DNA of 64,000 nt from an uncultured Isosphaeraceae bacterium (GTDB lineage: Bacteria > Planctomycetota > Planctomycetia > Isosphaerales > Isosphaeraceae), in contig CAMFLR010000026.1 of the NCBI GenBank assembly GCA_945957605.1, forward strand, positions 1 to 64,000. The letters are read 5' to 3'. The notes beneath the pieces were generated by a model that saw only the letters and a list, made by a program, of their open reading frames with translations, ran no database searches and was not told the origin of the DNA. Of this stretch, positions 38,782 to 50,518 are shown piece by piece (position 1 is the first letter of the stretch; the number at the start of each line of letters is the position of its first letter). The translations under genes and the position numbers were made by a program.

Positions 38782-40842
38782 TCAATGGTTGCCGCGTTTT
38801 ACGTCGCCGCGGGCGAAGATGCTGGCGACGTAGTTGAGCACGTCGGTCGCTGAATCATCGTCGTAGCCGTAGTTCCGAATCAGGCGGCTCTTGACGATGT
38901 CGATCTTCTCCTGCGTGTCCTTGTCGACGACGCTCGACACCAGGCTTGTGAGCTTGATCGTATCTTTCTGATCCTGGAACAACTTCAGCTCAAGCGCCTT
39001 TTGGAGCCGCTCGTTCGTTTTGTAGTCGAACTTGCGGCCGTCGAGTGCCAGGGCACCGATGTAGTTCATGATCTCGCGGCGGAAATCGTCTTTGCGGCTC
39101 TCGGGGATGTCGATCTTTTCTTCGATCGACCGCATGAGCCGTTCGTCCGGTTCTTCGGTCTGGCCGGTGTATTTATTCTTCACCTTCTCGCGCTGGGTGT
39201 AGGCTTTCACGTTGTCGATGTAGTTGCCGCAGAGGCGCGTGAGGGCATCTTCGTCGGCCGCGATGGCGCGCTGGACCTCGTTTTTCACGATGTCCTCGTA
39301 TTCCTCTTTGACGACCGAAAGCAGGTGCTTGTAATGCTTTCGCACCTCCTCGCTGTTGATGAGCGAGTGGTGCTTCAGGCCCGATTCCAGCTCGTTGAGC
39401 ACCATGAACGGATTGACCGACCGTTCGGACGCGTGCGCGACGAGGGCGTTGGAAATCTTGTCCTGCACGTAGCGCGGGCTGATGCCGTGCATCCCTTCGC
39501 GCTCGGCCTCTTCACGCAGCTCCTTGATGTTGTCTTCAGTGAAGCCGGGAAGCGTTTTGCCGTTGTAGAGCTTCAGTTTCTGTAAGAGCGTCAACCCTGC
39601 GTTCTTCGGCTCTTCGAGGCGCGTGAGAACGGCCCACATCGCTGCGACTTCGAGCGTGTGCGGCGCGATCTTCTTGCCGCGCACTTTTCGACTATTGTAG
39701 TCCTTCTGATAAATGTGAATCTCGTCGGCCAGCCGCGTGACGTAAGGCACGTCAATCTTGACCGTTCGGTCGCGAAGCGCCTCCATGAATTCGTTCGACT
39801 GTAGCTTCTTGTACTCGGGCTCGTTCGTGTGACCGATGATCACCTCGTCGATGTCGGTCTGCGCGAACTTCTTGGGCTTGATCTTGTGTTCCTGGCTGGC
39901 GCCCAGCAGGTCGTAAAGGAATGCGACGTCGAGTTTAAGAACTTCGATGAATTCAATGATGCCGCGATTCGCGATATTGAACTCGCCGTCGAAATTGAAC
40001 GCCCGCGGGTCGCTCTCGGTGCCGTATTCGGCGATCTTGCGATAGTTGATGTCGCCCGTCAGCTCGGTTGCGTCCTGGTTCTTCTCATCCTTGGGCTGGA
40101 ACGTGCCAATGCCGACGCGATCCTGCTCGGACAGAACCAATCGGCGCACGCGCACATCGCCCAGCAGGCGAGACCAGTCGCCGTCGTAGCGCGCCATGCG
40201 CTCGTTGAACATCTGTCGGCAATACGGGCAGAGATCGCCGTCGACCGTGATCTCATAACCGCCCGCTTCGACCGACTCGTTGAGCTTGTCGAGCAGTGGT
40301 CCGCGATGTTCGGTGGGGACGAGGTGCAGCGGGTCCTCGTGCATCGGGCAGTCGGCCCAAACCTCGACGCCTTCGAGACCTTCGTCGCGCCACTGGTAGG
40401 TGTACATCGCGCCGTCGTCGGTGCGCGAGTACTGTTCGAGACCCTTTTTCAGCAGGCGAACGATCGTGCTCTTTGACGAGCCGACGGGGCCGTGGAGCAA
40501 TAACACGCGGCGTTCGGTGCCATAACGATGCGCGGCGCTTTTGAGGATGTTGACGAGGCTCATCAAAGTCCGGTCGAGGCCGAAGATTGCGTCCTGGCCG
40601 TCGTTCGCTTCGTCGTCGAAGAAGCGGTGGCGGATGAACTTTTCCTTGTTGACCGTGATCTCCTCGGTGCCGTGCGAGAGGATCATGTCATACAGCCTTT
40701 GATAGGCTGTGCGAGTGACATGGGGGGTCGACTTGACGATTTCGAGGTAGTCGGCAAACGAACCGACCCAGTGCGTCTTCTGGTAATCCGCCGTGTTCTG
40801 GCGGTTGGAAATCAAGGTGATCAAATCCGATCCAGCGGACAT
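38782..40842 (-). CDS. prkA: PrkA family serine protein kinase (AAA+ domain)
   Basis: 686 residues, slightly longer than Escherichia coli YeaG. The N-terminal AAA-like domain has the P-loop GPVGSSKST (118-126) and acidic Walker-B-type segments; a CPYCRQMF motif near 205 is also typical. The C-terminal part (about 420-686) matches the PrkA kinase domain with [18 protein letters not shown]. The ribosome-binding region AGGAGGGAGAGGAG is very strong. PrkA/YeaG responds to nutrient stress and sporulation in other bacteria, and some homologues act as ATP-dependent proteases. First gene of the prkA-yeaH-spoVR set; a promoter candidate lies about 300 bases upstream. Confidence 0.95.
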
Positions 40843-41244: not shown

Positions 41245-42645
41245 TCATGCCACCGGCGCTTCGACGAACTCGACTTCCTCGGGTACCGCCGTGTTCGCAA
41301 GGGTCGCCTGGGGCAGTGACCGTTCGGCCAGTTCAACGAATGCCGCGATCATCAGGAGACCTACGGGAAGCGTGGCATAATGCGCGTAGCTATCGGCAGC
41401 GCCCAGAACCCAGGTCTGCGTCGGAAGCGACAGCACGACCCAGTATGCGAGCGTCGTCAAGCCTCCCGCGAGAACCATACCAAACACGAGCGCTCCGAAC
41501 AGCCGGCCGCCTTCTGCGCGAAGCAGTCGAGTGTAAGACACGAGGACACTCTTGAAGGTTCCCCGCGACCACGCGACCGCGCCTGTGAGTCCAAACGCCA
41601 CAACTGCCGCCGCCTGGAGGAGAATGATCCCATCGGTCACGATCCACCCGAGTGCTCGATTCAAACCGTTCGACGTGCCGAGGGACAGCGTGTAATACAG
41701 CCCCAATTCTGCGGCGGGAACGAGATAACGCGCGGGAAAAACCAGAAGACACACAAGACTCGTGGCCGGCATCAGCCCGACGACTCCGTTCAACCCGAGC
41801 GGGTCGTTCTCCGGACGCTCAGGCAGATTCAAACTGCGCAGCTCGACGCAAATCCAAGCTAGCATCAGGCCATCGGACAGAAGCATCAATGCGGGAATGC
41901 CAACAACTTCGAGCCCCATGCAACTACCGATGGGGACGTCGGGCGAGCCATAAAGCCACGAGATGCAACGATAAACGGCGTAAAGGGCACAGGCGCACCA
42001 GGAAATCGTTCCCCAGGCGGCGTCGCGTGTGCCGCGCGGCGAGATCACGCGGGATACGCTGCCCCAGCGGTCGGACGAGAACTGGAAGATGACGATCGCG
42101 GCGATCAAGAGCAGCGGGAACATGTTCCCCAGGCCGATGACATCGCGCATCGGCGTGAGACCGGCGAGTGCGCCGTGTTCGGTCGCAACACCTGTGAGTG
42201 TGCGGGCTCTGAGCAGCGAAACGAGGTCGTCTCGCCCTTGTGGTGCGCTGTAAGTGATGGCCTGCGTGGTGGTCCAGCAGAGGACCGTGACACCAACGAC
42301 CGTGGCGATGAGCCGTCCCGATCGCCGGATTCGAAGCGCAGCGGCCGACTGGAGCCGCATCGCAGAGGGGATATCGAAAAGCTGCCGCAGGAATCGACCC
42401 GGGCCCTGAAAAATCATGATCAGGACGGCGGTGGCGACGAGTCCCAAAACGATCGGCACCAACCAGGTATTCGTACCAGCGCCGGCGGGCGAAGACAGAG
42501 TGAGGCTCGAATACCATCGCCTCAATGCGAGCGAAACGGCTTGAACCGTGCCGGTACCCGGGGTGGTGCCCGTGCCGACGCCGGCCGAACCGCCCACGGT
42601 GGTGGCCTGCGCCCAGATCGACGAGGTGATTACACCGATATCCAT
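41245..42645 (-). CDS. Polytopic membrane protein, unknown
   Basis: 466 residues. A Gly/Thr-rich N-terminus (about 15-35) is followed by about ten hydrophobic segments, for example LVPIVLGLVATAVLIMIF, LIATVVGVTVLCWTTTQAI, GNMFPLLLIAAIVIFQF and the final LPVGLLMIAAFVELAE. No transporter or enzyme signature is recognised. Same strand as, and 144 bases downstream of, the toroid-domain gene, so the two may be co-transcribed and act together at the membrane. Confidence 0.75.
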   Translation of the reverse strand: MDIGVITSSIWAQATTVGGSAGVGTGTTPGTGTVQAVSLALRRWYSSLTLSSPAGAGTNTWLVPIVLGLVATAVLIMIFQGPGRFLRQLFDIPSAMRLQSAAALRIRRSGRLIATVVGVTVLCWTTTQAITYSAPQGRDDLVSLLRARTLTGVATEHGALAGLTPMRDVIGLGNMFPLLLIAAIVIFQFSSDRWGSVSRVISPRGTRDAAWGTISWCACALYAVYRCISWLYGSPDVPIGSCMGLEVVGIPALMLLSDGLMLAWICVELRSLNLPERPENDPLGLNGVVGLMPATSLVCLLVFPARYLVPAAELGLYYTLSLGTSNGLNRALGWIVTDGIILLQAAAVVAFGLTGAVAWSRGTFKSVLVSYTRLLRAEGGRLFGALVFGMVLAGGLTTLAYWVVLSLPTQTWVLGAADSYAHYATLPVGLLMIAAFVELAERSLPQATLANTAVPEEVEFVEAPVA

Positions 42646-42789
42646 CGTCGCCTACCTCGCTCAGCTCTTGGCCTGATGCAGACTCACGGTCGACCAGCGA
42701 CTTGTCCTGCGATTGTACGCTCCGAATCCATTCGGAGCCAGATCCATCCCCCGACGAATGTAAAATCCCGCGAACGGGTATGATTCGCC

Positions 42790-45318
42790 TTAGCGCGGCA
42801 GATTCGTCGGTTCGGAGACGATCGAGGGCGGCGCCGCGACAGGTGGTCGGCTGACGGACGAAGGGGCCGACGATGTGGTCGGCGGTGATTCGTACAGTCG
42901 CAGGTAGCGATAGTAGACTTCGAGGCTGAGGGTCGCCAGCGCGGTTGAGTAAATCCGGCCGCCGAGTGAGCCGAATTTGCTCGAATCGGGATCCCACGAG
43001 CCCGCGGCGTGTCCGTTCAAACGCTGGCGTTTCACAAGCTGGTCGCGTACCTGTGTGTTCCACGCCACCCAGGGGGTGCCGCCGTGCTGGTACATCGCCA
43101 GCGTGCCGTAATACCAGGTGTAGAGGTTGTATTCCGAGCGATCGGGTGAGTTGCGGAGGAGGTAATCGGCCGCTTCATTGCTCGCCGTGCCCGGGCCGCC
43201 GACTCCGAGGAATTGGCGGCAAACCCACGCTTCGGCCGTCATCGAGGCTGTCGGCATTTCGCCCGGCTGATAGAACGCCAGGCCGCGCGCAGCACCGGTC
43301 GAGACGCGCGCAAGCCATTTCAAAATGCCCTGTCGCGTATCGGCTGACATCGGCAGGCCGTTTTCCTGCGCCGATTTCAGCACCATCACGACCCAGCCGA
43401 GAATCGATGTATCACCAGTCGCCGCGCCTGGAGAGTAGCGCCAGGCCTGGCGGTCGGTCGCCCGCGCTGAGACGAGGAACGAGACAGCTTTTTCGACCGG
43501 GGCTTTCAGCTTGGGATCGCCAGTGAGGGCGTAGGCTTCGCAAAGTGCGAGCGTTGCCATCGCATGGCAATACATGCCGACGGCCTTGCTATCGCCGCGA
43601 AGGTCGCCGTCGGGGCGCTGGGCATGCCGGAGGAATTCGAGGCCACGGGCGACGGTGTCGGCGTATTGACCGTCGGTGTGCGTGTAGCCCGAGCCGAGGT
43701 AGGCGAGCAACGCCAGACCGGTGAGCGCGGTGTCAGCTTCCCAGTAGAAGCATTCACCGAAGCAAACATCGCCGGCGGGACAGTGGCTCGTGAAATCATC
43801 TTCGCCGCGGAGCACAGCGCCGTCGCGTAGTTTGGCCGAGCCGCCATCCCAGCGGCCATCGGCGTCCTGATGTTTCCGCAGCCATTCGAGCGCTCGTTCG
43901 ACGGCTTGTTCGCTTTCGCGCGTCGCACCGTCGCGCAGGGCGAGGGCGAAGCGGTTGGGATCAAGTCGCGAACGGTAGACCTGCGGTATGTCGCCGGCGG
44001 GACGTGTCAGGCCCGACGCGCCCGCGATTGCAGGTAGCCCGGGCAATCCCGATGGCGTGGCGCGCGGCATGGCGAGATCGGGCCGGCGCTCGGTGTTGAG
44101 TGCGAGTGCCTGAGTTTCACGCGCGGGACGTTGCGTGCGTCGCGCGTTCGATTCGGCCAACGTGTCGCGCGGACCCTCGATCGCCGGTCGTCTGGGCTCT
44201 GCTTTTGCCGTCGATGCTTCGACTGGAGTTGCGGTTGGCGATGCGATGGGTGTTGTCGGTGTCATCGCGCGATTTGCGGGCGCGAGTGTTGGTTTGGGAT
44301 TCGTTGCGCTTGGAGCAACGCCGCGCGGGGTGGCGGTGGTGGCGGGAAGATTCATCGCCAGCGACGTGTTCGGTGCACCGGTCTCGCGAGTGCCCGTTTG
44401 TGGAACGCGAACACGTCCGCTTCCGGTGAATCCCGCGCCATTGTCGCTCGGAGTTGCGGCCGTGCGCGGTGCAGTTTTGATCTCCGATGGATCGCCCTGA
44501 ACGACACCACCGGCCGCGGGATTCATCCGTTCGCTCGACGGTCCTGGCGCATCGCCCGCGGGGCGGTTCGTCAATGCGCCCAACGTCGGTGCCGCGGTCA
44601 AGCTGGGGCTTGATCCGGGAGTCGACGACGCTGCGGGGGCGGTCAGTTCGGGCAAATTCGTCGCCATCGCTGGACGTGCACGAGTCTCTGAATCCAGACG
44701 ATCGACGGGCGTTTCGGTCGTGCGTCGAGCCGTTGGCGCGGCGACTTCCGATGAGTCGGTCGCTGCTGCCGTCGCGGTTGGGGCTTCGGCCTTGTTATCT
44801 ACCGAAACGGGCGAGGGGGGAGGCGGATTGATCTCGGGTGAAGCCGTTTCGGTGTTGAGTTTCGCCAGGTCGGGCGGCGCGGGAGCGGGCTGCGATACAT
44901 CAACGCGGGGCGTCATCGGTCGAATCGATGGGTCAACAAGCGTTGCCTTGTCGTTCGCGCGGTCCCACGCGGCGACGTTTCGCGTGCGCTTGCCGTTGCC
45001 GCCGTTAGGTCCGCCATAAGCAGAGGCGGACGAATCAGGATCGGCGGCGAGTTGCACGTGGACGGGCGTCGGCTCGTCTTCGCTCGTCGAGCGTTCGCCG
45101 GCCAGCACCATTTGCACGACCGGAATCGTGCTGCCGTAAAGAACGAGGCCGACGTGTGCGGCAATCGAAAGCACGAGGCACTTGCGCAGAGCCCTGCGCG
45201 AGCCCCAGCTTGTCCAAGCCATCACTGCGAGGACGAACACTACGAGCGCCAGTGTGAACCAGGCGCCAACGTCGGCACGCAGCAGTTGGAGGAATGTCTC
45301 GAGGTCGAGGCCGGTCAT
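42790..45318 (-). CDS. TonB-like anchored protein with squalene-cyclase/prenyltransferase-like toroid
   Basis: 842 residues. Two N-terminal membrane helices (about 18-36 and 47-70) are separated by a positively charged loop, RRALRK (41-46). The second helix has S51-x3-H55 (SIAAH), the spacing of the essential Ser/His pair in the TonB anchor. About 380 residues of Pro/Ala/Thr-rich linker follow. From about 470 to 826 come repeated helices of the alpha/alpha-toroid family (ALEWLRKHQDADGRW, GLEFLRHAQRPDGD, YNLYTWYYGTLAMYQHGG), then a Pro/Ser tail. No cyclase DxDD or zinc site is evident, so enzymatic activity is doubtful. Predicted periplasmic toroid on a long tether; an ExbB-like channel gene lies 1.1 kb upstream. 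Confidence 0.8.
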   Translation of the reverse strand: MTGLDLETFLQLLRADVGAWFTLALVVFVLAVMAWTSWGSRRALRKCLVLSIAAHVGLVLYGSTIPVVQMVLAGERSTSEDEPTPVHVQLAADPDSSASAYGGPNGGNGKRTRNVAAWDRANDKATLVDPSIRPMTPRVDVSQPAPAPPDLAKLNTETASPEINPPPPSPVSVDNKAEAPTATAAATDSSEVAAPTARRTTETPVDRLDSETRARPAMATNLPELTAPAASSTPGSSPSLTAAPTLGALTNRPAGDAPGPSSERMNPAAGGVVQGDPSEIKTAPRTAATPSDNGAGFTGSGRVRVPQTGTRETGAPNTSLAMNLPATTATPRGVAPSATNPKPTLAPANRAMTPTTPIASPTATPVEASTAKAEPRRPAIEGPRDTLAESNARRTQRPARETQALALNTERRPDLAMPRATPSGLPGLPAIAGASGLTRPAGDIPQVYRSRLDPNRFALALRDGATRESEQAVERALEWLRKHQDADGRWDGGSAKLRDGAVLRGEDDFTSHCPAGDVCFGECFYWEADTALTGLALLAYLGSGYTHTDGQYADTVARGLEFLRHAQRPDGDLRGDSKAVGMYCHAMATLALCEAYALTGDPKLKAPVEKAVSFLVSARATDRQAWRYSPGAATGDTSILGWVVMVLKSAQENGLPMSADTRQGILKWLARVSTGAARGLAFYQPGEMPTASMTAEAWVCRQFLGVGGPGTASNEAADYLLRNSPDRSEYNLYTWYYGTLAMYQHGGTPWVAWNTQVRDQLVKRQRLNGHAAGSWDPDSSKFGSLGGRIYSTALATLSLEVYYRYLRLYESPPTTSSAPSSVSRPPVAAPPSIVSEPTNLPR

Positions 45319-45507
45319 GGGCAGGGACTCGTCAGGACTCGAAAAACCGCACTCAAGCTTACGGTTTCAGGCGATTTTCGGCCAGACGAAGGACGGTCGA
45401 CTGCGGCTGTTTCCCGATCGACGAAATGAACGTCCGCATTTTACCCAGTCAGCGTATTTTCGGAGTTCCTTTGCGACCGCAGTCAGTGTGGATTTAATAC
45501 GTCATGT

Positions 45508-46215
45508 TTATTTGACGATTTGATCTGGTGAAACCGGCAGATCGATCATTTCGAGGTTTTCTGGCAATGATGTTTGTTCTTGAGTTGGGATAATTGGGGT
45601 GCCGATCGATTTAACGTGTTTCCGACCGCCGTTCGCTTCCTGGAATTCCTGCCAATTCAGAAACAACAGATTCCAGGGGCACCTGACATAGTGTTTGAAC
45701 AATTGCTCCTTTTCACGACGAAACTCTTCGCTTTCGTCAAATGTGGAGTCGTCACGAGGACCGGACTCCCAATAACGCCCCCTCTCGCAACAGTAGTTCC
45801 ACTTGGATTTTAAAGTCCAAGCCGAGTTCACCATGGCAAACTCGATTCCGAGGAATGCGATGGCAAGCATTAGCGTTGCAACTCGGAAGTTGAAGCGCGG
45901 ACGCCACGGCCTGAGCCGGTAGAGCGATAATCCAACGACAACAGCGAATGCAGAGCTTGCCCCCAAGTAGAAGATCCATTGAAGTCCGAGATCAGTCCCA
46001 ATAACAAGCCTCGAATTACAAATGGTGGCCTCTAGATTCTCTAAAGCTTCGCTGAATGAGGACGCACGGCGGAACAGACTCCAGAGTTCTTGGCCCAGCG
46101 ACATCGCAAATTCGGACTGTAACTCTGTCAGCGACTGATACACCCACATCAGGGTGATCCCGAGTCCATTGAGGCCGATGACAAGAAGCCAAATCCAGCG
46201 TGGATTTCGTTTCAT
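45508..46215 (-). CDS. Hypothetical membrane protein
   Basis: 235 residues. Four hydrophobic segments: IWLLVIGLNGLGITLMWVY near the start, LGLQWIFYLGASSAFAVVVG, and FRVATLMLAIAFLGIEFAMV, the last resembling the common planctomycete pattern for short membrane proteins. The C-terminal about 90 residues are soluble and charged. GGAGGT sits 8 bases before ATG. It lies between the ExbB-like and toroid genes, but a strong terminator precedes it, so it starts a new transcript. Function unknown. Confidence 0.68.
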   Translation of the reverse strand: MKRNPRWIWLLVIGLNGLGITLMWVYQSLTELQSEFAMSLGQELWSLFRRASSFSEALENLEATICNSRLVIGTDLGLQWIFYLGASSAFAVVVGLSLYRLRPWRPRFNFRVATLMLAIAFLGIEFAMVNSAWTLKSKWNYCCERGRYWESGPRDDSTFDESEEFRREKEQLFKHYVRCPWNLLFLNWQEFQEANGGRKHVKSIGTPIIPTQEQTSLPENLEMIDLPVSPDQIVK

Positions 46216-46339
46216 GGATCCGTACCTCCGTGTCCTGCAATCTCAAGGAATGTTGCTGCATACCATATCAAAGGTTTTCGTGAAACTGAATTTACCGTTC
46301 CGATCGGTTCAAGAGATCTTCACGAAGCCCCTTCGAAAT

Positions 46340-46374
46340 CAAAAATCCCCGCAGTCAGTGGAGACTACGGGGAT
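46340..46374 (-). terminator. Rho-independent terminator after the ExbB-like gene
   Basis: Read on the minus strand: ATCCCCGTAGTC with GACTGCGGGGAT, a long stem with one mismatch and a 6-base loop, followed by a run of Ts (46345-46341). It lies about 30 bases past the stop at 46404 and ends the TPR/ExbB transcript. Confidence 0.85.
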
Positions 46375-46403
46375 CTGCTGAATCAAAGGACGAATTCACA
46401 ACA

Positions 46404-47324
46404 TCAAAGGTCGTACAAATCTTCATCATGCTCCATCGCGCGAGCAATCGCGTTGGGGATATCAACGCGATACTGATGCGGCGTGCGAGCGGGGCCTGAG
46501 GGACCGTGCGAGTGTCGGCGCTGGGGCGGCTCGGAGGGCTGTGGGTGCGCGGTACGCGGGGGCTCGGGCGGGGCGGCCATGCTGATCGCGTCGATCGTCT
46601 CGGCGCCCAGGCGTTCGAGATTGCCGACGAGCTTTTCGACGCGTCCCATCAGGCCGTCGTAGGCGACGAGTGAGAGAATCGCCATCGCCACACCCGCCGT
46701 AACGGGGGCGAGGGCGGTCGCCATCGCTGGCGCCCAATCGTTGCCGCCGGTGGCAAACGCGCGGCCGGCGGCGAGTAGGCTGCCGAGCAGGCCGAGGAGG
46801 GGGGCCATTGCGGCGATTCGTCGTAGCGTGCCGACGTTGCGCTTGAGCCGATCGGCTTCGACGCGCGTGGCGATCGAAACGCCGCGTTCGAGGTCGAGCG
46901 TCGAGCGTCCCCACCGCTTCACCGCCGCAAGCGCGACGCGCGAGGCGGGGCTCGAGTTCAGCTCGCAGAGGTCGAGAATCTTGCCGCGTTCGAGCTTCAC
47001 GTCGTCCATGCGGTCCTTGAACCGCTTCATGAAGTCATTCGGCATGACCCGGCGGCGGCGGAGGCGGAACATGCGGTCGAGCAGAGTGAGACCGCCCAGA
47101 ACTCCGCATGCGACAAGGCCGGCGGAGGGAATACGTTCGGCAGGGGGGGTTGCCCAGTACCAGGCGGCGATTTTCGCGCCCGTTTGCTTTGCGAGTTGAA
47201 GGCCGCGTTCGACCCACGGATTTACGTTTCCATCCGCGCCGCTACACGTCACAACGACAACTAAAACAGCCAGCCCGAAGGCGGCTCGCAACCCGTGGTG
47301 ACGTACCAGTGATGGCCGAAGCAT
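46404..47324 (-). CDS. MotA/TolQ/ExbB family proton-channel protein
   Basis: 306 residues. A signal-like N-terminal helix (about 10-28) is followed by a membrane helix at 66-83, a cytoplasmic stretch (about 88-168), and the paired helices of the MotA_ExbB domain (171-189, MAPLLGLLGSLLAAGRAF; 199-222, MATALAPVTAGVAMAILSLV). The preceding DLERGVSIATRVEADRL helix is typical. The C-terminal 60 residues are Pro/His/Arg-rich. ExbB-type channels use the proton gradient with an ExbD partner to drive TonB-like proteins; no ExbD is in the window. Translated from a message shared with the TPR gene. Confidence 0.88.
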   Translation of the reverse strand: MLRPSLVRHHGLRAAFGLAVLVVVVTCSGADGNVNPWVERGLQLAKQTGAKIAAWYWATPPAERIPSAGLVACGVLGGLTLLDRMFRLRRRRVMPNDFMKRFKDRMDDVKLERGKILDLCELNSSPASRVALAAVKRWGRSTLDLERGVSIATRVEADRLKRNVGTLRRIAAMAPLLGLLGSLLAAGRAFATGGNDWAPAMATALAPVTAGVAMAILSLVAYDGLMGRVEKLVGNLERLGAETIDAISMAAPPEPPRTAHPQPSEPPQRRHSHGPSGPARTPHQYRVDIPNAIARAMEHDEDLYDL

Positions 47325-47335
47325 GAAAAGGGGTC

Positions 47336-47392
47336 CTTCCCTTGTCAGATGATCGCGACCCTGTCTTATCGGTCAAATCGCGGCAAGGGAAG
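47336..47392 (-). promoter_or_regulatory. Inverted repeat covering the ExbB ribosome-binding site
   Basis: CTTCCCTTG and CAAGGGAAG (9-bp perfect arms, 47384-47392 and 47336-47344) flank a loop of about 39 bases in the TPR-ExbB gap. The arm nearest the ATG contains the Shine-Dalgarno AAGGGAAGGA, so folding would hide it. Confidence 0.4.
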
Positions 47393-47422
47393 TCGGGCCA
47401 ATTCAGCATCTGCCTGATCGGC

Positions 47423-50400
47423 CTACTGTCCTTCGCCAGTCGATTTGACGCCCTCCGCGCGCTTGCGGGCGGCGGCCAGCCGTTCCTCCGCCTTGGCCGC
47501 GTTCGGGTCGGACGGGAACTTGGAGCGCAGCCTTTCATATGTTTCGGCAGCTTCAGCCCATTGACCTAACTGTTCGTGAACTTTTCCTGCCTCAAGCAAA
47601 GCATTCGCCTGCCAGACCGGAGATTCATACAGGTAATCGACCTTGAGGAACTCCGGCAGCGCCTTGCGATAATCCTTTTGGTGGAAATAAGTTTCGCCGC
47701 GCATGAACTGGGCTTTCGCGGCTAATTCACTCCCCTTGCGAGCGGCGATCACTCGAGTGAAAGCCTCACGTGCCTCGTCGAATCGCGCCAGACCTTGAAG
47801 CGCCCTGCCGCGCGAATAGTCAACTTCTGGCAAGAATGGATCGTTTTCGCCCTTCGGCTGGCTGGCGATGTACGCATCACCCGCCTTCAGGCCGTCCGCC
47901 CATTTTTCAAGCTGAACGAGCGCCTGTACCTCGCGGCGCTTGGCGGTACGAACGAGGCCAGGCGGATCGGAAGGTTTGGCCGGTTCGGCGATGAGCTTCG
48001 CGAACTGAGTGAGTGCGGATTGGATGTCGCCGCCCTGGAATGTAATTTCGCCCAGCCAGAACTGTCCTTCGCGACGATAGCTGCCTTCGGGATGATCCTT
48101 GATCAGCCGTTCGAACGTCGCTTGAGCTTCCTTGGGCTGCTTCAACTCGACTTGCGTGCGACCGAGCCGATAGAGCGCCGATTGCACGAGCTCGGGCTTC
48201 GCCTTGGAATCGGCGGCCAGCAGCGGCTGGAGAAGCGGCGCGACTTCGTCGAACTTCTTCGCCGTGAAGGCGGATTCGGCGAGATTGAACCGGGCGTCGA
48301 GAGCCTTTGCGCTGTTGGGGAATTCCTTGAGCACGCGATTGAACAGGGCATCGGCGTCAGCGGTTTTTTCGGCGTCGACGAGTGCCCAGGCGTGCTCGGC
48401 CAGAATCACTTCGGGGGCGTCGGCTTTGGGATAATCGCGTTCGATCGTCGTGTAAGCCTCGGCGGCTTCAGATCCCCGCTTCAATTCGACGAGCAAGCGC
48501 GCCCGCGCGAGCGCTGCCTTGCCGGCCGCTTCAGCCTTGGGATAACGCGAGACGACAGCCACATACGCACTCAAACCGGCTTCGGATTGCTTTGCGGCTT
48601 CGAGGGCGCGACCCTTGGCGAAGGCGGCGTCGGGGGCGAGGGGATCGTCGCTGCTTTCCTTGGCGAATTTCTCGAATGCTTCGGCGGCGTCGGTAGCCTT
48701 CCCGGCTGAGAGCAAAGCCCAGCCGTTGCCCCAGCGAGCCCGTGCCTTGACGGCGGGGTCGGCCCCTTCGGCGGCGAGGCGGAAGAGTTCGGCGGCGCGG
48801 TCGTATTGCTTCGCGGCCTGGGCCGATTCGGCGAGACGTAGCCGGGTGATCGGCAATGCCTTGCTCTTGGGGAAGCGGGTGGCGAGTTGTTCCATCGTCG
48901 CGCGGGCGGCGTCGGCCTGACCGGTTTCGATCTGGGCCTGCGCGATGTGCGCGAGTGCGAAATCGGCGACCTCGCCATTTGGTTTGCTCGACAGGTATTT
49001 CTCGAGCGCGGGGATCGCTTCGGCAAAGCGGCCGGCTTCGACGTGTCCCTGGCCCAGCATGAACTGGGCGTCGGTCGCGGCGGTGGCGGCAGGGGTCTTG
49101 GCGAGTGAGTCGAGAATCTCGTTGGCCTTGGCAGATTGGCCGTCGGCGCGATAGGCGAGCGCCAGATAGTAGTGCGTGGCCTGCGCTGTGGCGGGGCTGG
49201 GATGACCGGTTTCGATCACCTCGGTGAGAATGCGAATCGCTTCCTTGGGGGCGGGCTTGGCGAGGGCGACTCGTCCTTGAATGAGCATCGCATCGGCGAT
49301 CAGGTCCGACCTCGGGAATTTGGTTGCGAATGAGTCGGCCAGCGAGCCAGCGCGGGTGAGATCATTCGCTTCGAGCGCCATGCCGGCGAGTCGCAAGAGC
49401 GCATCGTCGGCGAGAGTATCTGACGCATCTTTCTCACTGGCTTTTTGGAAACGAACGCGAGCTTCGTCGAGCTTGCCCGCCGCCTGCGCTGCCTCGGCGG
49501 CGTGGAAGAGGAGGAGCGAGCCCGAGGGCGTTGTTGCGAATTTTGTGGCGGCGTCGTCGAGTGTTGCGAGCGCGTCGGCTGCTTTGCCTCTTGCAAGAAG
49601 AGAAGCTCCCAACGCATCGGCTGCCCGAGCCGCCAGTGCAGGGCTTGATGATTTCGTGAGCGGTTTCAACAGCGATTCGCCTTCGTCGCGACGATCGAGT
49701 TTTCCCAAGACTTCCGCGCGTTGAAGCTGAGCTTCGCCGATCAAGGCGCTGCGGGGGAACTTGGTCTCGAACGCTGCGAAGGCTTTGGCGGCGGGTTCGA
49801 GGCGATTTTCCTGCGCCTCAACTCGCGCGATTTCAAAGCTCGCGCGCTCGGTCCATTCGGGGGTGCCGGTCTTCGCGAGGTCGTTCAGAACTTTGATGGC
49901 GCCGTCGGGATCTTTCAGATTGACGAGCGTATGTCCGAGAAAGAGCTTCGATCGCTCGGCCAGGCGGCCATTGGGAAAAGCGATGACCTTTTCATATGCC
50001 GTTTTCGCCCGCGCATAGTCGTTGAGCCGATACGATACGTCGGCCAGGTGTGACCATGCGGTTTCGGCGTTTCTGTGCTTCGGGCTTTCGGTCAAGAATC
50101 CTTCGAGAGCCGTGCGGGCGGCGGCGAGGTCGCCGAGGAGATAGGCGGTTTCACCCACGCGGAAACGGGCAGTCGCGTGGTTGGGATGATTGGCCGGCGC
50201 ATCTTTCACGAACGTTTCGAACTCGGTGCGAGCTTCCTTGTAACGTCCCAGCGCGAGGCGGGCGCTGGCGAGGCCGAAGTGGGCGTCGAGAGCGTCGGGG
50301 CCGTTGGGATTTGTGCGGAGGAAGTTCTGGAATTCGTCAGCCGCGAGATCGTAGCGACGGTCGCGATAGAGTCGATTGGCGAATTCGAGCGCTTCGGGAA

Positions 50401-50518
50401 CCTCGCGCGCCGCGGGCGAGCTGGCCGCGGGAGCCTGCGCCTGGGAGGTCTCGGTAGGAACGGTAAGCACACCGGCCAGGCCAACGGCCGACCAGACCGA
50501 GATCCAATGGATGCGCAT
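47423..50518 (-). CDS. Large exported TPR protein
   Basis: 1031 residues from ATG 50518 (AGGGAG upstream); the frame opens 25 codons earlier without support. The signal peptide ends near SQAQA. The rest is an almost continuous array of TPR units (over twenty), e.g. RLYRDRRYDLAADEFQNFL, ARTEFETFVKDAPANHPNH and AAETYERLRSKFPSDPN. YbgF/CpoB- and BamD-like proteins share this solenoid type. First gene of the unit with the ExbB-like channel, so it is probably a periplasmic scaffold for that machine, much as YbgF partners with Tol-Pal; this is inference. Confidence 0.88.
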   Translation of the reverse strand: MRIHWISVWSAVGLAGVLTVPTETSQAQAPAASSPAAREVPEALEFANRLYRDRRYDLAADEFQNFLRTNPNGPDALDAHFGLASARLALGRYKEARTEFETFVKDAPANHPNHATARFRVGETAYLLGDLAAARTALEGFLTESPKHRNAETAWSHLADVSYRLNDYARAKTAYEKVIAFPNGRLAERSKLFLGHTLVNLKDPDGAIKVLNDLAKTGTPEWTERASFEIARVEAQENRLEPAAKAFAAFETKFPRSALIGEAQLQRAEVLGKLDRRDEGESLLKPLTKSSSPALAARAADALGASLLARGKAADALATLDDAATKFATTPSGSLLLFHAAEAAQAAGKLDEARVRFQKASEKDASDTLADDALLRLAGMALEANDLTRAGSLADSFATKFPRSDLIADAMLIQGRVALAKPAPKEAIRILTEVIETGHPSPATAQATHYYLALAYRADGQSAKANEILDSLAKTPAATAATDAQFMLGQGHVEAGRFAEAIPALEKYLSSKPNGEVADFALAHIAQAQIETGQADAARATMEQLATRFPKSKALPITRLRLAESAQAAKQYDRAAELFRLAAEGADPAVKARARWGNGWALLSAGKATDAAEAFEKFAKESSDDPLAPDAAFAKGRALEAAKQSEAGLSAYVAVVSRYPKAEAAGKAALARARLLVELKRGSEAAEAYTTIERDYPKADAPEVILAEHAWALVDAEKTADADALFNRVLKEFPNSAKALDARFNLAESAFTAKKFDEVAPLLQPLLAADSKAKPELVQSALYRLGRTQVELKQPKEAQATFERLIKDHPEGSYRREGQFWLGEITFQGGDIQSALTQFAKLIAEPAKPSDPPGLVRTAKRREVQALVQLEKWADGLKAGDAYIASQPKGENDPFLPEVDYSRGRALQGLARFDEAREAFTRVIAARKGSELAAKAQFMRGETYFHQKDYRKALPEFLKVDYLYESPVWQANALLEAGKVHEQLGQWAEAAETYERLRSKFPSDPNAAKAEERLAAARKRAEGVKSTGEGQ

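Follow-up and report, generated by a model that had tools for sequence, protein, structure and literature searches.

Among published systems, the nearest class to the one described here consists of the PVC-group vWA force transducers, and the toroid module of this report appears to be their sibling. These transducers combine an SHLS-type anchor with a disordered, Pro-rich tether and a C-terminal domain with no relation to that of TonB or TolA (Williams-Jones et al. 2025, PMC12204202). Their genes are arranged in the order TPR, tolQ-like, tolR-like, transducer (PMC12204202), and in the TolQ-only vWA systems, which have no TolR, the vWA helix bears an Asp and no SHLS (PMC12204202, Fig. 4c-d). 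A TPR partner, TtpD2, has also been described for Vibrio TonB2 (PMC6957404). On the motor side, a conserved TM1 Ser of ExbB meets the Ser and His of the TonB/TolA anchor, and Thr181 of E. coli ExbB has been named essential, along with Asp25 and Thr148 (PMC12905483). The literature searched contained no description of the toroid module itself. The combination of ExbB/ExbD, squalene, and planctomycetes returned nothing in open-access papers, and the main text of the essential-gene papers for Planctopirus and Verrucomicrobium does not mention ExbB, ExbD, TolQ, or TonB.

The window analysed here is a stretch of 64,000 nucleotides from an uncultured Isosphaeraceae bacterium (assembly GCA_945957605.1, contig CAMFLR010000026.1), and the locus under study lies on its minus strand. 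A sequence-only reading had proposed that a TonB-type anchor, fused to a squalene-cyclase-like toroid, is driven by the product of a neighbouring ExbB-like gene.

The toroid protein and its locus

The toroid protein (842 aa, 42790..45318, minus strand) has the parts that the sequence-only reading had described, namely a basic loop, the S51-x3-H55 anchor, a Pro/Ala/Thr-rich tether, and a squalene-cyclase-like toroid. Two hydrophobic helices are found at its N-terminus, and S51-x3-H55 lies in helix 2, after the basic loop SRRALRK. The tether covers about residues 76-430 and consists of 15% Pro, 17% Ala, and 13% Thr; its composition is as first described, while its extent is 355 residues in place of the earlier figure of about 380. 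The alpha/alpha toroid domain follows at about residues 440-810. Its AlphaFold2 (AF2) model (42793..44001, minus strand) has a pLDDT of 90.8, with the C-terminal 32 residues disordered. The top structural matches of this model were squalene-hopene cyclases (Z 26.4 to 2sqc, 291 residues aligned), and other toroids, such as (alpha/alpha) sugar epimerases and mannanases, were found lower down. Pfam identified SQHop_cyclase_C (PF13243) as the sole domain of the 842-aa protein, with a score just above the cut-off. Neither a TonB_C/TolA C-terminal domain nor a vWA C-terminal domain was found by Pfam, and the AF2 model has an alpha/alpha toroid in that place.

No obvious DxDD had been seen in the toroid, and the motif is indeed absent from the window's protein; it occurs in only 9 of 38 relatives, late in the domain, and is not conserved. 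W187, R188, Y189, D197, E155, and Y144 of the toroid are retained even in short paralogues that have no anchor. Conservation of aromatic and charged residues this strong is also compatible with an enzyme, and we leave room for that. The short anchor-less paralogues of the window's genome (G000 C10:237898-238776, C2:221637-222383, and C1:1194267-1195097) have W-R-Y and D-x-S residues in common with the toroid domain, hinting at a shared binding or catalytic site. In a toroid paralogue of another genome, G045 (L074 9642-11660), the N-terminus is rich in cysteine and resembles a zinc ribbon, and no anchor helix is obvious near the start of the protein.

Two further genes of the locus belong to the putative ancestral operon. 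Its first gene encodes a 1,031-aa TPR solenoid of the periplasmic type, with a signal-peptide-like N-terminus (47423..50518, minus strand), and is followed by a gene for a 306-aa ExbB-like protein, here called ExbB' (46404..47324, minus strand; PF01618, 48.5 bits against a cut-off of 22.9). The caveats raised in the earlier reading were all found to hold: a strong terminator with a 14-pair stem lies 3' of the ExbB' gene (46376-46343, minus strand), a gene for a hypothetical two-helix protein of 235 aa intervenes (45508..46215, minus strand), and there is no ExbD at the locus, the genome having nine ExbD matches elsewhere. The terminator and the hypothetical gene both lie inside a low-GC segment of 1,085 bp (45319..46403, minus strand, GC 0.499) that splits the ancestral junction between the ExbB' and toroid genes. 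Since the GC content of this segment is 50%, compared to 62–66% in its neighbours, and since a same-genus relative (L041) has only 345 bp between the two genes and no hypothetical gene there, we interpret the break as a local insertion. The distance between the ExbB and toroid genes was also considered as an argument against their coupling, and was ruled out because the lower-GC insertion is missing from that relative. Beyond the toroid gene lies a gene for a multi-pass membrane protein of no known family (41245..42645, minus strand), an optional neighbour that adjoins the toroid gene in several relatives. Together with a PrkA kinase gene, found at 38782-40842 in the window, it follows the toroid gene in several relatives.

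Conservation of the anchor and of the gene order

The anchor-helix segment around S51 and H55 (residues 47-60; 45139..45180, minus strand) was compared among 39 toroid orthologues. H55 was present in 39/39 and S51 in 38/39, and H55 was the only exception-free position among the first 75 residues. Variability of these two residues, which had been named beforehand as evidence against a TonB-type anchor, was not seen. S-x3-H was also present in 5/5 of the larger (type II) toroid homologues. In a wider, phylum-wide set of 80 loci, a Ser was found four residues before the His in 72 of 74 scored homologues, a count in which only the Ser is informative, because the His was fixed by the search as that of the most hydrophobic x-x3-H segment. 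A control set from the same loci, with 574 hydrophobic segments from 524 proteins, contained S-x3-H in 19 segments, and 18 of these 19 were toroid anchors. The S-x3-H of the toroid anchors is therefore not a chance occurrence, and it is nearly exclusive to them in the control set. The full SHLS motif (S-x3-H-x6-L-x3-S) is not kept, as its Leu and final Ser are not conserved; position 62 is mostly Gly and position 66 mostly Pro in Isosphaeraceae, and both are variable in others.

The topology of the toroid anchor is predicted to agree with that of TonB, with a basic cytoplasmic start and a periplasmic tether. The mean net charge is +3.6 for the loop versus -1.2 for the N-terminus. Two scanned homologues, L154 and L178 (Phycisphaerales), have a Pfam-identified PD40 beta-propeller ahead of helix 1, consistent with an outside (periplasmic) N-terminus of this helix. 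Given the basic loop and the propeller, a topology opposite to that of TonB, also listed at the outset as counting against the proposal, was not seen. In L154 (4956-9722) and L178 (4806-9044), a single chain runs from a TolB-like PD40 propeller through a pair of membrane helices, with S-x3-H, and a long tether to the toroid. Such propeller-toroid chains are 1,400-1,600 aa long, and L172, L180, L197, and others, several of them from Phycisphaerae, are alike in length and anchor position, with PD40 confirmed by Pfam in L154 and L178 only. A vWA domain was considered for the long (970-1,600 aa) toroid homologues and rejected: none was found in the six scanned, and two Phycisphaerae-type ones had PD40 propellers instead. 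A further toroid paralogue, shorter and with only one S-x3-H helix, was also observed (L052 870-2672, L054 1345-2946, L142 1-1284, L144 1-992, and G000 C25:57580-58710). It is transcribed divergently from the adjacent TPR-ExbB-toroid operon in Paludisphaera-like genomes and lies away from motor genes in the window's genome.

Within Isosphaeraceae, the synteny of TPR, ExbB, and toroid genes is kept. ExbB was found upstream of the toroid gene, on the same strand, in 21 of 28 loci, and the gap between the ExbB' and toroid genes was at most 345 bp in 17 of these 21. In the other families of this class, an ExbD gene separates ExbB from the toroid gene. Among the 51 non-Isosphaeraceae loci of the public genome set with over 4.5 kb of upstream sequence, the order TPR-ExbB-ExbD-toroid was observed in 32, and ExbD was directly upstream of the toroid gene in 47, including Pirellulales and Phycisphaerae. 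The sequence-only reading had asked for conservation of this neighbourhood across planctomycetes, which was found, and toroid genes usually lying far from ExbB, a pattern it would have held against itself, were not. No ExbD was seen in the Isosphaeraceae-type toroid loci of the public genome set (0/9), or in those of the window and its Isosphaeraceae relatives except the deep-branching G019, although many of the genomes are metagenome-assembled, and gene absences may represent assembly gaps. G019 has an undivided operon with ExbD and an ordinary ExbB. Based on these gene orders, the ancestral module is taken to be TPR-ExbB-ExbD-toroid, with ExbD lost from the locus in Isosphaeraceae. Because the anchor is conserved and the synteny with ExbD and ExbB extends across the phylum, support is gained for the proposal that planctomycetes widely have a Ton/Tol-like module in which a toroid replaces the TonB C-terminal domain. 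A second, paralogous TPR-ExbB-ExbD-toroid operon was seen in L110-L114, where the toroid proteins are about 970-1,220 aa long and S-x3-H is present.

The local ExbB' and a stand-alone ExbB-ExbD pair

The window's genome contains 6 MotA_ExbB and 9 ExbD matches. A search for a distant ExbD gene had been suggested, and one of the nine is paired with an ExbB from the clade of toroid-operon ExbBs, forming a stand-alone canonical ExbB-ExbD pair on a different contig from the toroid locus (G000 C2:63024-64067). In the ExbB tree, the operon ExbBs, the stand-alone ExbB, and ExbB' form one clade with a support of 97/99, to the exclusion of other ExbBs. The branch of ExbB' is very long (2.22), making its exact place in the tree unsure; the deep forks of the ExbD tree are weakly supported, and the deep ExbB branches are likewise unresolved. 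The stand-alone pair was found side by side in 32 of 37 Isosphaeraceae genomes, as read by eye from match tables, with 13 of the 32 checked in the tree. A DedA-like (VTT domain) gene was observed 3' of the pair (L078 9455-12039, also L098-L109), by Pfam in three loci and by eye in most others.

The two kinds of ExbB differ at positions of known importance. The TM3 Thr, which corresponds to Thr181 of E. coli ExbB, was present in 0/21 ExbB' proteins versus 29/29 proteins of all other groups. The TM1 Ser, which we equated with the published anchor-contacting Ser from its spacing to the [ED]R that comes next, was present in 0/21 ExbB' proteins versus 13/13 stand-alone ExbBs and 6/6 outgroup operons. 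The ExbD Asp of the stand-alone pair was present in 13/13. Neither Isosphaeraceae ExbB has the TM3 Pro by which anchor and pore are linked in Ton/Tol. No other S-x3-H protein was found within 4 kb of the stand-alone pair (13 loci). These observations do not support the window's ExbB gene as the motor, the role the sequence-only reading had given it: the Thr partner of the ExbD Asp and the anchor-contact Ser are lost, there is no ExbD partner, and a canonical pair is present elsewhere. The stand-alone pair is the likelier motor to drive the toroid anchor, and the local ExbB' has probably become a relic or scaffold that does not conduct. The retention of ExbB' in most Isosphaeraceae genomes argues for a function.

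Proposed mechanism and comparison with known systems

We think there is a reasonable case that the toroid protein is a Ton/Tol-type transducer driven in trans by the stand-alone ExbB-ExbD pair, with ExbB' a non-conducting, diverged paralogue. The toroid protein would be anchored in the inner membrane and span the periplasm, and its helix 2, with S-x3-H, may dock on the rim of an ExbB pentamer. Through coupling across loci, the stand-alone ExbB-ExbD would drive this anchor, so that the toroid may be powered by the proton-motive force; proton flow would move the tether and probably exert force through it. The disordered tether would span the periplasm, and the toroid would act on an envelope target, periplasmic or outer-membrane, which might be a glycan or a protein. 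Its conserved partner would be the periplasmic TPR protein, in the manner of CpoB in Tol-Pal. In Isosphaeraceae, the working motor would have been split from the locus, and ExbB' would be a probable non-conducting scaffold on its way to loss. Helix 1 of the toroid protein was also considered as a substitute for ExbD, a role suggested in the TolQ-only vWA systems, and this was ruled out, since acidic residues occur in either helix in 0/39 orthologues. More tentatively, we suggest a picture with somewhat less confidence than doubt: proton-driven transducers across the phylum may have a toroid as their business end, which might be an enzyme or a binder of glycans operated by pulling, and one family may have split its motor off, the local ExbB now being a non-conducting part of the machine.

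A rather doubtful alternative is that ExbB' is the true docking partner, as an ExbD-free pentamer or in mixed rings with the stand-alone ExbB, and that the toroid anchor is static or differently gated. In its favour, 21 of the 28 Isosphaeraceae toroid loci have ExbB' as a neighbour, and the sequence of ExbB' is constrained, with WY, R, E, and D invariant and a P-L-T motif that is new in TM3. It also keeps the fold, with TolQ/ExbB as the best PDB matches of its AF2 model. However, all 21 ExbB' proteins have lost the anchor-contacting TM1 Ser, and in two genomes (G016 and G007) where no ExbB' was found, the toroid S and H are nevertheless kept.

We consider it unlikely that the toroid acts in the periplasm as an enzyme, be it a glycan-processing one or one akin to terpene cyclases, tethered to the membrane by an S-x3-H helix that only localises it and transmits no force. 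Its likeness in fold to squalene-hopene cyclases, sugar epimerases, and mannanases would fit such an enzyme, as would the six residues kept in anchor-less paralogues, but the anchor matches motor-docking residues, ExbD is directly upstream in 47 of 51 non-Isosphaeraceae relatives, and the toroid has no conserved DxDD. That the anchor likeness reflects a membrane-helix habit shared among planctomycetes, with no link to ExbB/ExbD, is highly improbable: toroid paralogues with a single S-x3-H helix do exist away from motor genes (L075), yet all but 1 of the 19 S-x3-H helices from the control set belong to toroid proteins, and the gene order with ExbD is phylum-wide.

The transducer reading, preferred here, would give a candidate job to ExbB-ExbD motors in an envelope of poorly understood mechanics, in a genome where neither a TonB domain nor a TonB-dependent receptor was found and where several ExbB-ExbD pairs nevertheless have no known load. 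One ExbB paralogue has, moreover, lost pore and docking residues that a canonical copy keeps, a natural experiment on what docking needs as opposed to ion flow.

Searches for TonB_C, the TonB-dependent receptor barrel, and TolB_N gave no match in the window's genome, so that a part in a classic Ton or Tol-Pal system is unlikely. The genome does have OmpA-type domains. The module resembles TonB-ExbB-ExbD and TolA-TolQ-TolR in its S-x3-H anchor helix, basic cytoplasmic side, periplasmic tether, and, in most relatives, neighbouring ExbB and ExbD, and it resembles Tol-Pal (CpoB) and Vibrio TonB2 (TtpD2) in its TPR partner. Unlike TonB and TolA, the toroid protein has neither their C-terminal domain nor the last half of SHLS, and for these reasons it is not a member of that family, although it plausibly works like one. 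With squalene-hopene cyclase and other alpha/alpha toroids it shares the fold and the PF13243 match, but it differs from squalene-hopene cyclase in its lack of a conserved DxDD, its fusion to a motor-type anchor, and its expected position outside the membrane core. The TolQ-only vWA systems also have an ExbB/TolQ gene beside the transducer and no ExbD/TolR gene, whereas the toroid helices carry no acidic residue and keep S-x3-H. The vWA force transducers in general differ in having a vWA domain in place of the toroid and no extra N-terminal helix; most toroid operons have one ExbD, and the Isosphaeraceae locus has none. The two nevertheless share the same anchor logic, the tether, and the TPR-tolQ-tolR gene order.
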